DNA from: a virus
Direction: 5' to 3' (one strand)
IMG/VR virus record: IMGVR_UViG_3300046011_005684
Coordinates: 1-20,448 of that record
Length of the DNA stretch: 20,448 nt
In this document: piece by piece, positions 6,474 to 13,270 of the stretch
How positions within the stretch are numbered: position 1 is the stretch's first letter
Layout: the number at the start of each line of letters is the position of its first letter
The notes under the pieces: model-generated
The model's input: the letters and a program-made list of their open reading frames with translations, nothing else
Told to the model about the DNA's origin: nothing
Databases searched by the model: none
Translations under genes and position numbers: made by a program

Positions 6474-6481
6474 ATAAAGTA

Positions 6482-6511
6482 ATTGGCTAAATAAAATAGT
6501 CTTCGTATATT
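6482..6511 (+). promoter_or_regulatory. Bacteroidetes-type promoter P7
   Basis: ATTG at 6482-6485, 20-nt spacer ending GTCTTCG, TATATT at 6506-6511 followed by TAAAC. Confidence 0.78.
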
Positions 6512-6539
6512 TAAACTGTTAATTTAAAAATAATAAGTT

Positions 6540-6743
6540 ATGTTTAAAACAGAAAAAGCAAGAGAGTTATTTAGTCAATTACTAGATGTTAATTGGAAAA
6601 TTGATAATAAAGAGTATCGTTCACTTGAAGAACGAGTTGAATTAAATACTGAGTATCATAAGTTATATCAGGGATTAATGTTAGAAATGGGTACAAAGGA
6701 GTTTACTGAGTTTATGGAGATGGGTAATAAATTGTTTAATTAA
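6540..6743 (+). CDS. Unknown 67-aa helical protein
   Basis: Own promoter P7 and GTT-ATG start. The sequence is charged and almost entirely helix-forming (KARELFSQLLDVNWKID, SLEERVELNTEYHKLYQGL), consistent with a small helical bundle. No cysteine, membrane or DNA-binding motif recognised. Followed after 11 nt by a second small gene. Confidence 0.78.
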   Translation: MFKTEKARELFSQLLDVNWKIDNKEYRSLEERVELNTEYHKLYQGLMLEMGTKEFTEFMEMGNKLFN

Positions 6744-6754
6744 AAATAAAAGTT

Positions 6755-6943
6755 ATGACATTACAGGTTATCAATACTAAAAAGGAAAAATTCAATCAAA
6801 TTCGTTCAACAAAAGAAACATTATTTGCTGATGTAAAATCTCAAGGTTGGAATCTTCAAGATTGTAAAGTAACAGAACTAAAAGAAGAATTAGTTTATAC
6901 TTTATATAGAAGTGCTGACGGTAAAAATTCAGCAAATTATTAA
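6755..6943 (+). CDS. Unknown 62-aa protein
   Basis: GTT-ATG start; probably the second gene of the P7 unit. N-terminal strand MTLQVINTKKEKF, then a helical part and KEELVYTLYRSADGKNSANY at the end. No known motif. The stop lies 7 nt upstream of the tRNA-like gene, which would therefore be co-transcribed with these two genes unless it has a promoter that I do not see. Confidence 0.75.
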   Translation: MTLQVINTKKEKFNQIRSTKETLFADVKSQGWNLQDCKVTELKEELVYTLYRSADGKNSANY

Positions 6944-6950
6944 ATAAAAA

Positions 6951-7096
6951 AGTCAGGTGGCGGAATTGGTAGACGCTACGCAATTATACTTACGAGTAAA
7001 CTACCACCATAAATCTAAATTAGGTTGTACAGAAACGATTTAGTAAGGGTAAGTTGATAAAAGGTTTACATACAGGTTCGATTCCTGTCCTGACTA
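6951..7096 (+). tRNA. Abnormal class II tRNA-like gene, 146 nt, anticodon unclear
   Basis: A perfect 7-bp acceptor stem (AGTCAGG 6951-6957 with CCTGACT 7089-7095), U8-G9, a leucine/serine-type D arm (GCG 6960-6962, loop with TTGGTAGA, CGC 6974-6976) and a perfect T arm (ACAGG, TTCGATT, CCTGT, 7072-7088) are present, with discriminator A7096 and no encoded CCA. Between D and T arms there are 95 nt where a class II tRNA has about 35-40. No canonical 5-bp anticodon stem forms at the expected place. Other helices are possible: GTAAAC 6996-7001 with GTTTAC 7064-7069, TACC 7002-7005 with GGTA 7048-7051, TAAATC 7010-7015 with GATTTA 7037-7042, or ACTTAC 6988-6993 with GTAAGT 7049-7054. It could be a tRNA with an intron or insertion, a giant variable arm, a tRNA mimic or a decayed tRNA. 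The insert is too short for a normal group I intron. Confidence 0.6.
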
Positions 7097-7106
7097 CTAT
7101 TACAAC

Positions 7107-7151: not shown

Positions 7152-7169
7152 TAGCCCCGAAAGGGGCTA
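7152..7169 (+). terminator. Strong GNRA-loop hairpin
   Basis: TAGCCCC / GGGGCTA, a 7-bp stem closed by a GAAA tetraloop (7159-7162) and followed by TTTACATTATTT. It is a second terminator between the tRNA-like gene and the next promoter. Confidence 0.75.
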
Positions 7170-7489: not shown

Positions 7490-7519
7490 TTTGGATAGTA
7501 TTAAATTACTTAGTATATT
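7490..7519 (+). promoter_or_regulatory. Bacteroidetes-type promoter P9
   Basis: TTTG at 7490-7493, 20-nt spacer ending ACTTAG (CTTAG replaces CTTCG), TATATT at 7514-7519. Confidence 0.72.
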
Positions 7520-7551
7520 AAATCATATTAATAATAAAAATAATAAAGGTT

Positions 7552-7674
7552 ATGACAGAAAAAGAATGTAGAGAAGCTTGGGAAAAGTATCAACAAACTG
7601 CTCACCCTGAAGACATGATGTCTTATATGGAGTTTAGAAGTGAAATGGGAATTGAGGACGAAGAGGAGTATTAG
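7552..7674 (+). CDS. 40-aa acidic mini-protein
   Basis: GTT-ATG start downstream of P9; ends TAG, which also forms the TTAG of the next promoter. The peptide (TEKECREAWEKYQQTAHPED, then MEFRSEMGIEDEEEY) is acidic and helical. It is flanked by its own promoter and the next one, the same single-gene arrangement as its neighbours, which supports it as real despite its length. Function unknown. Confidence 0.65.
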   Translation: MTEKECREAWEKYQQTAHPEDMMSYMEFRSEMGIEDEEEY

Positions 7675-8784: not shown

Positions 8785-8814
8785 TTTGGCAAGTATAAAT
8801 TAACTTCGTATATT
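8785..8814 (+). promoter_or_regulatory. Bacteroidetes-type promoter P13
   Basis: TTTG at 8785-8788, 20-nt spacer containing TATAAA and ending AACTTCG, TATATT at 8809-8814. A weak GGGG/CCCC hairpin (8766-8769 with 8780-8783) lies just upstream. Confidence 0.82.
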
Positions 8815-8846
8815 AAATCATATTAATAATTAAAAATAATAAAGTT

Positions 8847-9206
8847 ATGAACAAAACGCAAACAATCGATTTATTAAAAAGTCAAATGCCTGGATTCTAT
8901 TCAGTAGAACAAGTTATCAATCTTATCGAAAAGATTGAAGAAGAAGAACAACAAGCAACTGCTAAACTTACTTTCGATCAAGTTAGAGAACTTACTCGAA
9001 GTATTGTTAATGCAATTGAAGAAGAAGCTCAAAGAGATAACATCGTTAATTTTGAAGATGTTGAATTTGAATTAGGTTGGGATAGAAAAATTGAAGTAAC
9101 AGACGTTCCAATTAATTTTGATGCAATTAGAGATTGTGTTGAAGAACAATTGATTGAGTTCTTTGAAATAGAATCTTTATTCATATCTTTAGGTATCAAT
9201 AATTAA
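8847..9206 (+). CDS. Unknown 119-aa acidic protein
   Basis: Own promoter P13 and GTT-ATG start, hairpin after the stop. The N-terminus (KTQTIDLLKSQMPGFYSVEQ) is a helix-turn-helix-like amphipathic stretch, followed by an acidic coiled segment (LIEKIEEEEQQ), then a middle helix (VRELTRSIVNAIEEEAQR) and an acidic C-terminal half ending EFFEIESLFISLGINN. Net charge is strongly negative. No catalytic motif or membrane segment. Function unknown. Confidence 0.82.
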   Translation: MNKTQTIDLLKSQMPGFYSVEQVINLIEKIEEEEQQATAKLTFDQVRELTRSIVNAIEEEAQRDNIVNFEDVEFELGWDRKIEVTDVPINFDAIRDCVEEQLIEFFEIESLFISLGINN

Positions 9207-10004: not shown

Positions 10005-10029
10005 GGAGTATAAAATTTCTTCGTATATT
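10000..10029 (+). promoter_or_regulatory. Promoter P15, without a TTTG-like -33
   Basis: CTTCG then TATATT at 10024-10029, with the AGTATAAAAT block seen in other copies, but AATA where TTTG is expected (10000-10003). It shares AAGG(A/G)GTATAAAATTTCTTCG-type flanks with P21. Confidence 0.65.
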
Positions 10030-10061
10030 AAAGCATATTAATAATAAAAAATAATAAAGTT

Positions 10062-10409
10062 ATGACAAAAATTAAAGTAAAAATTACTCACAAAACATTA
10101 ATGATGAGTATGGAGTTTCCACTTGAAGTAGGACAAGTAAAAATGGATGCTGAATGTCAAGTGTTTGTTTACAAAGACAGAGAATCAGGGTATTTAACTG
10201 GTGATTTTGATTTCATGGATTACAAAAATACCACATACATGGGTATGCCGATTGATGGTTATAAGGGAATGCAAAAGTTAAGAGATTTCCATACTGAATT
10301 AGGAATTGATCTACAGAAATTAATTAATGATGAATTTTATAAAATCATTAATGAAGAATTTCAAGCTGATTTTGTATCACAATTTGATATTAAAGATTTT
10401 GAGTACTAA
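10062..10409 (+). CDS. Unknown 115-aa protein
   Basis: GTT-ATG start downstream of P15; strong hairpin after the stop. The N-terminal half is beta-rich (KIKVKITHKTLMMSMEFPLEVGQ, QVFVYKDRESGYLTGDFDF). The C-terminal half is helical and acidic (MQKLRDFHTELGIDLQKL, INEEFQADFVSQFDIKDFEY). No cysteine pairs, signal peptide or known motif beyond this alpha/beta layout. Monocistronic. Confidence 0.82.
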   Translation: MTKIKVKITHKTLMMSMEFPLEVGQVKMDAECQVFVYKDRESGYLTGDFDFMDYKNTTYMGMPIDGYKGMQKLRDFHTELGIDLQKLINDEFYKIINEEFQADFVSQFDIKDFEY

Positions 10410-12761: not shown

Positions 12762-12998
12762 ATGAAAGCAAAAGTGCAAATTAAATCAGTGTTTGAACAA
12801 ATCGCCAACAACGTATTTACAATGAAAGATGTTAACCAAGCCAAGGTATTCATCACCGAATTTATCACCAGTAAAGGTATAGACGGTGTAGATAAAAATA
12901 CTATTGTGAATAACGTTAGCAGATGTACTAATATTAATCAATTACAACGTTACGTGTGTAATTCGTTATTGATGTACGAAGGAATGGGAGTTAGTTAA
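12762..12998 (+). CDS. Unknown 78-aa protein
   Basis: Own promoter P23, GTT-ATG start. Helical and mildly basic: KVQIKSVFEQIANNVFTMKD, AKVFITEFITSKGI, TIVNNVSRCTNINQLQRYVC and LLMYEGMGVS. Codons here (ATC, AAC, GCC) are somewhat more GC-ending than in neighbours. The stop TAA lies inside a strong hairpin terminator. Function unknown. Confidence 0.82.
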   Translation: MKAKVQIKSVFEQIANNVFTMKDVNQAKVFITEFITSKGIDGVDKNTIVNNVSRCTNINQLQRYVCNSLLMYEGMGVS

Positions 12999-13004
12999 AC
13001 TCCC
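12986..13004 (+). terminator. Intrinsic terminator at the end of the mini-gene array
   Basis: GGGAGTT (12986-12992) and AACTCCC (12998-13004), a 7-bp stem followed by GTTTTTTTAC and a further T-run. The stop codon is in the loop and 3' arm. This is the most canonical intrinsic terminator in the window. Confidence 0.85.
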
Positions 13005-13270
13005 GTTTTTTTACTTTTTTTTGAAATAAAATTTGAGGGGACACCCTACCCGAACGGGCATGCACCACACACGAACGGGCACGGGTTGGTGTCGAATGCC
13101 CACACGTCGTTGCTGTCCGTACACGAGATGGTGTCGAACACGTGTAAAATTTCCGCACCTTTCAGATCGAAAACGATCTTTCACCCAGGCCCTCATATAT
13201 ACTCATATACTAAAACAAATGTAGGTCTCCCCCTATTCCATATACTTATAGGAAATTAAAATTAAATAAA
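13005..13270 (+). other. GC-rich structured intergenic region B
   Basis: No credible gene. From about 13037 to 13190 the DNA is far more GC-rich than its surroundings (34 of 60 bases in 13081-13140). It has exact direct repeats CGAACGGGCA (13051, 13072) and TGGTGTCGAA (13087, 13129). Nested inverted repeats are GGGCAT 13056-13061 with ATGCCC 13096-13101 and CACCA 13063-13067 with TGGTG 13087-13091; also ACACG 13121-13125 with CGTGT 13141-13145, and AGATCG-AAAA-CGATCT 13164-13179. CCTAT 13232-13236 with ATAGG 13248-13252 lies just before the next gene. A structured RNA or cis-acting DNA site is likely; which one cannot be told. Confidence 0.55.

Follow-up and report, generated by a model that had tools for sequence, protein, structure and literature searches.

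A predicted non-decoding RNA on a tRNA scaffold in a tailed phage, and a phage-borne family of RNA genes with changing payloads

We propose that positions 6951-7096 of the window (that is, the complete virus record of 20,448 bases analysed here) encode a non-decoding, structured RNA built on a tRNA scaffold, and on comparative sequence grounds we put the probability of this reading at roughly 0.65-0.7. The comparison with related phage genes demonstrates that pairing within the scaffold is constrained, that the genes are carried by phages and often stand in arrays, that the anticodon arm is missing and that payloads change on a steady scaffold. What a preliminary description had presented as one odd gene is one of hundreds. 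The overall reading given there held in part: the tRNA-like fold, the missing anticodon arm and the giant arm stood, and the options of an intron and of a decayed tRNA fell away.

The element at 6951-7096 and its genomic setting

The whole gene, 146 nt without CCA (6951-7096, plus strand, as are all features of the element), is matched over its full length by the Rfam tRNA model RF00005 (cmscan, 34.3 bits against a gathering score of 29), compared with which it contains a long insertion, and it shares its scaffold with hundreds of phage elements. Its acceptor stem pairs at 7/7 positions between AGTCAGG (6951-6957) and CCTGACT (7089-7095). The 5' strand is followed by U8, G9 and a Leu-type D arm (6958-6976; read directly and in the Rfam alignment), with the stem GCG 6960-6962/CGC 6974-6976, the loop GAATTGGTAGA, and A14 and A15 at 6964 and 6965. 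On the other side lie the T arm ACAGG-TTCGATT-CCTGT (7072-7088; strands ACAGG 7072-7076 and CCTGT 7084-7088, 5/5 pairs, also in the Rfam alignment) and the 3' acceptor strand with the discriminator A73 at 7096 (7089-7096, read directly), after which CCA is not encoded. The argument of the preliminary description for a selected tRNA-like fold, which was drawn from the 7/7 acceptor, the Leu-type D arm and the perfect T arm, is supported.

Equally correct was its observation that 95 nt (6977-7071) separate the D and T arms and that no stem forms between positions 27-31 and 39-43: an anticodon stem of 5 bp with a 7-nt loop and U33 is absent from the window element. Where the anticodon arm would be expected to start there is a 19-nt spacer (6977-6995), of which 6980-6995 is unpaired in the minimum-free-energy (MFE) structure. 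It is followed by a predicted giant variable-type arm on a 7-bp basal helix, GTAAACT 6996-7002/GGTTTAC 7063-7069, which is found in the MFE structure and agrees with the family-wide count of helix positions given below. Within the arm an inner hairpin (7010-7044) is formed in the MFE structure of this single sequence by ATTAGGTTGT 7019-7028 and ACGATTTAGT 7035-7044, with TAAATC 7010-7015/GATTTA 7037-7042 as an alternative pairing. The nested helices from which a giant variable arm had been suggested (GTAAAC 6996-7001/GTTTAC 7064-7069, TACC 7002-7005/GGTA 7048-7051 and the TAAATC/GATTTA pair) are all present. The arm is joined to the T stem by an AT linker (7070-7071), in which T7071 corresponds to U48, the expected Levitt partner of A15 at 6965; relatives also combine A14A15 with T48.

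Over its whole length the element has an MFE of -35.0 kcal/mol and a z of only -1.7, which makes the complete fold just modestly more stable than shuffled sequences. A possible crossing helix, ACTTAC 6988-6993/GTAAGT 7049-7054, is not above chance in the window (p 0.73), and as crossing helices of at least 6 pairs are not significantly in excess across the family (15 against 10.4 expected) we do not claim it. The sole relative of the window payload is a 99.99% identical contig (L003/L299), and for this reason the window helices are without covariation support of their own.

The element shares with class II tRNAs (tRNA-Leu, RF00005) the 7-bp acceptor, the D arm with A14/A15 and GG, the 5-bp T arm with its TTCRA loop, A73, A15-U48 and a variable-arm helix (GTAAACT/GGTTTAC) that ends 2 nt before the T stem. 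It differs from them in lacking an anticodon arm, in its length of 146 nt against about 85, and in an arm that, as a structured insert of 74 nt (6996-7069), far exceeds ordinary tRNA size. All the features that define the wider family occur in it, namely an AGTCAGG-type acceptor, the Leu-type D arm, ACAGG-TTCRANN-CCTGT, A73 and a non-anticodon insert. Default ARAGORN makes no call in the window; a tRNA is reported by Rfam and by ARAGORN in intron mode. A tmRNA was considered and dropped, with ARAGORN -m negative on the window and no tmRNA match in Rfam.

The intron-mode call, a tRNA-Tyr(ata) with a 50-nt intron, would favor the suggestion that a tRNA-Leu or tRNA-Ser is split by a small intron of unknown type, ~50-60 nt long, and matures by splicing, as would tRNA-Leu genes elsewhere (L002, L090 and Caulobacter phage Cr30, L151) whose anticodon stem is clean and whose anticodon loop holds an insert of 40-75 nt. 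However, the Tyr(ata) call contains an A-A mismatch in the stem, and ARAGORN makes intron calls about equally often for real elements (124/137) and for copies with shuffled inserts (574/685). When every single excision was tried in the window, 0 left a canonical anticodon arm with U33, and there is neither a group I core nor an Rfam intron match (E up to 1). Moreover, given the scaffold shared within an array, splicing would yield many copies of nearly one tRNA. We accordingly regard an intron as highly improbable.

The window is a fragment of a tailed phage akin to Flavobacterium phage immuto (78% DNA identity over a short stretch, and shared genes), and among its other genes are those for an ATP-dependent DNA ligase and further phage proteins. 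Directly upstream is a 62-aa open reading frame (ORF; 6755-6943, plus strand, from the ORF list; 79% amino acid identity in the stretch L300), whose 3' untranslated part holds the element, and downstream of the element stands an intrinsic terminator-like hairpin, TAGCCCCGAAAGGGGCTA, with a TTTA tail (7152-7169, plus strand); a similar hairpin is found in the same place in L300. This 168-kb stretch is the nearest distinct relative (ligase 83% identical at the amino acid level): it keeps the flanking gene and the similar terminator and is missing the equivalent of window positions 6944-7097 (~154 nt), the insertion point being flanked by TATTA on either side. Where an ordinary tRNA-Leu or tRNA-Ser in a relative had been named as evidence against the preliminary description, the nearest relative thus offers a clean empty site with no tRNA. 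At another shared site L300 and a further relative, L301, carry other tRNA-like elements that are mutually non-homologous. What these comparisons show is cassettes being gained and lost, and not one tRNA slowly decaying.

The same pattern bears on a DNA-level explanation, in which the element would copy tRNA gene ends as a site of integration or recombination, or would be a selfish cassette with recombination-site ends. It would account for the ~154 nt cleanly present or absent relative to L300 with TATTA flanking the insertion, for the differing elements at one site in L300 and L301, and for constant ends around variable middles, which resemble gene cassettes. Yet the TATTA repeat sits in A+T-rich DNA; integrases and recombinases are not prominent among the commonest neighbors of such elements, although a cluster of HNH-type ORFs is among them; the elements are strongly co-oriented with their flanking genes; and compensatory changes maintain RNA pairing in the acceptor and T stems. 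This explanation is hence quite improbable in our estimation, though a little less so than the intron.

Two further observations concern the window at large. Repeated sequences of ~50-85 nt with CTTCGTATATT-like cores lie upstream of many of its genes (e.g. 6478-6542, 7490-7555, 8785-8850 and 10007-10070) and are probably promoters of this phage. Positions 12991-13259 hold several overlapping ORFs on both strands, with translations that seem unlike the rest of the window.

Scaffold pairing, arrays and payloads across the phage family

A first pattern (D arm, 76-105 nt, T loop) recovered 8 viral stretches, one of them (L003) near-identical to the window element and several diverged. A looser pattern gave at least 120 matches. 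Both patterns were composed of only the D-arm and T-loop motifs, with no acceptor stem required; among the matches listed, 111 are unique, and acceptor pairing is 7/7 in 87/111, with 48 different acceptor sequences, and among those listed with acceptors other than AGTCAGG it is 7/7 in 53/71, as against ~2% after random re-pairing of the halves. In a search that used the 3' end alone (the T loop plus CCTGACTAC), AGTCAGGTR occurred at most 215 nt upstream of 126 of the 153 ends found, compared with 159/10,170 random stretches (~1.6%). Finally, a scan of the fetched loci (1.2 Mb) for the scaffold geometry (U8, a 7/7 acceptor and a 5-bp T stem within 100-230 nt) returned many dozens of matches, against 1 in Markov-shuffled sequence and 0 there with a D arm, which places the tRNA-like ends far beyond chance.

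All fetched loci together contain 371 elements (329 unique, in 247 payload clusters), a set that was in part selected for the AGTCAGG acceptor and in which a few long members are probably chance pairings. This acceptor is present in 284 elements and A73 in 333 of the 371, the predominant shared scaffold being AGTCAGG...ACAGG-TTCRANN-CCTGT-CCTGACT-A with differing payloads. Counted by exact 3' ends, single phage contigs hold arrays of 11 (on a 251-kb contig), 8, 8 and 7, and in L038 11 elements are packed into a 13.9-kb stretch. Genes flanking the elements are co-oriented on both sides in 135/159 cases and opposed on both sides in 2/159; no protein partner is conserved among the neighboring genes. 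Across ~85,000 bacterial and archaeal species genomes the scaffold 3' end turned up in 15 stretches only, mostly metagenome-assembled contigs, many from Bacteroidota, with a few being without a partner acceptor or ordinary tRNAs. The scaffold family hence appears to be essentially phage-specific. Taken together, acceptor pairing, arrays, co-orientation and rarity in cellular genomes argue for phage RNA genes under pairing selection, neither pseudogenes nor products of chance.

A decaying tRNA pseudogene with random insertions might still be invoked for the window, whose payload has no close homolog beyond the near-identical contig and whose nearest distinct relative lacks the gene. Against this, its acceptor, D and T arms are perfect, whereas stems would be the first to suffer from decay; pairing at 7/7 persists over 48 acceptor sequences in the family; and payload types are kept across contigs of many samples (13 and 28 stretches for the two types described below). 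Decay, one of the options in the preliminary description, is thereby relegated to the same very low standing as the intron.

With respect to anatomy, a canonical anticodon arm is found in 3 of 101 non-redundant oversized elements, just as chance predicts (2.8). A helix of at least 6 pairs whose end lies exactly 2 nt ahead of the T stem is present in 35 of these 101, against 7.5 expected; at an offset of 3 nt the excess is weaker (19 against 8.1), and at other offsets there is little or none. It is 2 nt before the T stem that the variable arm of class II tRNAs ends. This count, along with compensatory changes in sister payloads, lends support to the giant variable arm of the preliminary description. 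T at position 48 accompanies A14A15 in 241 oversized fetched elements, as the Levitt pair needs, and the tRNA core therefore seems to be kept. Some payload words are weakly enriched (GAGTAA, 18 against 6.3; GATAAC, 13 against 3.7); TAGACG and similar words were discarded as leftovers of the D arm. The elements themselves match only tRNA in Rfam, with no Rfam family found for the payloads.

Two payload types illustrate how payload and scaffold change. In the L006 type (13 stretches) most members have the basal helix GTCAAC/GTTGAC, replaced by ACCAAC/GTTGGT in L078 and L158. Separately, a direct reading of L030 against L071 reveals compensatory changes in two helices, the basal one and a crossing one. 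In the L022 type (28 stretches) the payload is largely constant while the scaffold varies, with acceptors AGTCAGG/CCTGACT, AGTGAGG/CCTCACT and AGTAGAG/CTCTATT and T stems ACAGG/CCTGT, ACAAG/CTTGT and GTAGG/CCTAC. As the payload is retained while the scaffold covaries, the two evolve as separate modules.

The scaffold is not exclusive to non-decoding RNAs, since a few ordinary-looking tRNAs also use it; one in L231 (from 13031, minus strand) is Lys(UUU)-like and combines the AGTCAGG scaffold with a perfect anticodon arm. An alternative is that the window encodes a working non-canonical tRNA with a giant variable arm, which would be charged, for instance by the leucyl-tRNA synthetase (LeuRS), and would decode, frameshift or suppress through an unrecognised anticodon in the spacer. 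Consistent with it are the Leu-type D arm, A73, A15-U48, the helix at the variable-arm position, and the anticodon hairpins of the same scaffold, namely the Lys(UUU)-like one and the 6-bp stems with the loop TAATGAAT in L231 and L195. It is countered by the 98/101 oversized elements without a 5-bp/7-nt arm at the right place, the remainder being at chance level, by the window spacer, which is unpaired in the MFE structure, and by payloads that vary between elements with no kept anticodon. We consider such a tRNA unlikely, albeit the least so of the alternatives to a non-decoding RNA.

A pseudoknot RNA of cultured phages and one payload type

The core of the L022-type payload weakly matched (blastn, E 0.2) gaps without annotation in cultured phages, in two cases within tRNA clusters. 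With an improved query, about 60 cultured phage records were found to carry what we term motif M, nearly always unannotated; they belong to T5-like and T4-like enterobacterial phages, Klebsiella vequinta-like phages, and large phages of Rhizobium and Erwinia. Motif M appears as a pseudoknot RNA of ~90-110 nt, often in tRNA clusters, with a closing stem P1 and a pseudoknot P2/P3. Representative loci are L333:2497-2587 (phage mogra), L334:1492-1591, L304:1463-1560, L335:993-1090, L302:1467-1559, L337:996-1084, L338:963-1060, L339:965-1059 and L303:1459-1566, and permuted forms occur in RHEph12 (L336) and in L317. In mogra, a phage of E. coli K-12, tRNA-Met and tRNA-Arg are separated by a gap that the unannotated motif fills. 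It has no matching family in Rfam (E up to 2).

Over 12 different P1 and 14 different P2 sequences pairing is complete (81/81 and 87/87), as against 0.40 (P1) and 0.47 (P2) when strands are matched across different phages; as the strands were chosen by eye, these figures express consistency and are not a blind test. On the tRNA scaffold the blocks of motif M stand in circularly permuted order, cut in the loop between P2-5' and P3-5'. On the tandem-duplicated L022 insert, an HMM built from the linear form reaches 16.5 bits, with at most 5.4 in shuffled controls, and the structure-aware score of L022 (37) is above that of every other payload. The circular permutation indicates that at least once the tRNA body took up a complete independent RNA, giving it new ends.

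By eye the window payload itself resembles a further permutant of motif M (ACGAGTAAAC, AACGATTTAG, TGATAAAAGGTTT and two crossing helices), a reading that we reject. There is no HMM match between the two on tandem-duplicated inserts. Under a descriptor made of the P2/P3 pseudoknot and the blocks ACGCUCUUAG, CGAAUAA, GAGU and GAAAGACCC in any circular order, the window score is reached by 90/300 shuffles, even though the descriptor was written after seeing the window, which would have favored it.

Proposed action and known counterparts

We posit that the window element is transcribed within the 3' untranslated stretch of the small phage gene, ahead of the terminator, and that host RNase P and tRNA 3'-processing enzymes would cut out its tRNA-like ends, with CCA then added, in line with established tRNA maturation. 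The acceptor, D and T arms would form a tRNA-like core, with A15-U48 kept, that probably stabilizes and protects the RNA and presents the payload in place of the anticodon and variable arms; in the window this payload would be a long arm that stands on a 7-bp helix where class II tRNAs have their variable arm, with no anticodon arm for decoding. The payload would act in trans, and our best guess is that it baits or inhibits host proteins by which tRNA-like RNA is bound or attacked, a role that would include counter-defence. This guess derives from the fast turnover of payloads, the common presence of several per genome and the near absence of the scaffold from bacterial genomes. By itself, a bait or anti-defence action remains a tentative suggestion, with the odds against it. 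Equally tentative is the composite picture in which phages carry arrayed, exchangeable, tRNA-scaffolded RNA cassettes, processed by the host, with at least one payload a circular permutant, and in which these cassettes bait or inhibit host systems that depend on tRNA or target it. As the anticodon is not read by LeuRS, such RNAs could be leucylated. Phage tRNAs are known to counteract defences that target tRNAs (PMC10264068; PMC11555353).

Several known RNAs offer parallels. RNAC and RNAD (species 1 and 2) of phage T4, stable phage-coded RNAs of 139 and 119 nt from its tRNA region, come closest as a precedent in their size and location and in having no known function (PMC3014915; PMC9697503). 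We regard them as analogs from a comparison of sequences by eye: RNAC has a comparable T arm, CCGGG-TTCGAAT-CCCGG, but by eye its acceptor makes 5/7 pairs and a Leu-type D arm is not visible. Motif M has no match in the RNAC/RNAD region. A foreign structured RNA is likewise protected inside a tRNA body in the scaffold of RNA biotechnology of the Ponchon and Dardel type (PMC3753655), which is artificial, whereas the phage form is natural, phage-borne and arrayed.

In murine gammaherpesvirus 68, a DNA virus, the TMERs form arrays of tRNA-like non-coding RNAs, a feature they share with the phage family; they differ in belonging to a eukaryotic virus, in being transcribed by RNA polymerase III and in being fused to microRNA hairpins. 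tmRNA resembles the window element in its tRNA-like ends and missing anticodon arm, but it lacks a D stem and, at a length of about 350 nt, includes a reading frame like that of an mRNA. A review of non-canonical tRNAs makes no mention of phages (PMC7609411), and we found no earlier description of phage tRNA-scaffold RNAs in the openly licensed literature, so that one elsewhere is possible. Judged by this literature and by Rfam, which has nothing closer than the generic tRNA model, the hundreds of phage elements with differing inserts probably constitute a class of viral RNA that has yet to be described.

If correct, this would imply a large class of phage non-coding RNAs that gene finders have missed or misnamed, and a tRNA body that acts as a natural general chassis for other RNAs. 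The long-standing question of stable RNAs of the RNAC/RNAD type (PMC9697503) would gain a comparative frame with hundreds of examples. A cultured system would also be on offer in phage mogra, in the form of the pseudoknot RNA related to one payload type and located between two tRNA genes. Among cultured phages, Lactobacillus phage Satyr, which grows on L. plantarum, has a candidate scaffold gene near L129 2505-2615.

Other tRNA-like genes were encountered in the same loci and in other phages. The 6-bp anticodon-like stems mentioned above carry an 8-nt loop, TAATGAAT in L231 (from 11541, minus strand) and L195 and TAGCGAAT in L139 (from 4643), on the stems CCTTGC/GCAAGG and TACCAC/GTGGTA; these are possibly frameshift-type anticodon loops. 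A second T-arm-like hairpin (e.g. CTGGTTCGATTCCAG) lies in the D/anticodon region of elements in L139 (from 3307 and 3672), L205 and L228. Class II tRNA-like genes in L041 (minus strand, 7501-7651 in reversed coordinates), L058, L023, L043 and L123 keep an anticodon-like loop, CTGTCTC, on varying stems, with a variable arm of ~60-75 nt. The tRNA-Leu genes with 40-75-nt anticodon-loop inserts, found at L151:1494-1650 (Cr30, unannotated), in L002 and L090 and in L040/L091, possibly contain very small introns. The Rfam freshwater-1 RNA (RF02979) is found near tRNA and tRNA-scaffold arrays at L006:74-135 and L041:8501-8562, both on the minus strand. Lastly, in T7-like cyanophages a 5' piece of tRNA-Leu directly follows the integrase gene (L148 ~797-843 in S-TIP37; L149 ~797-839 in S-TIP28), and is probably the attachment site.
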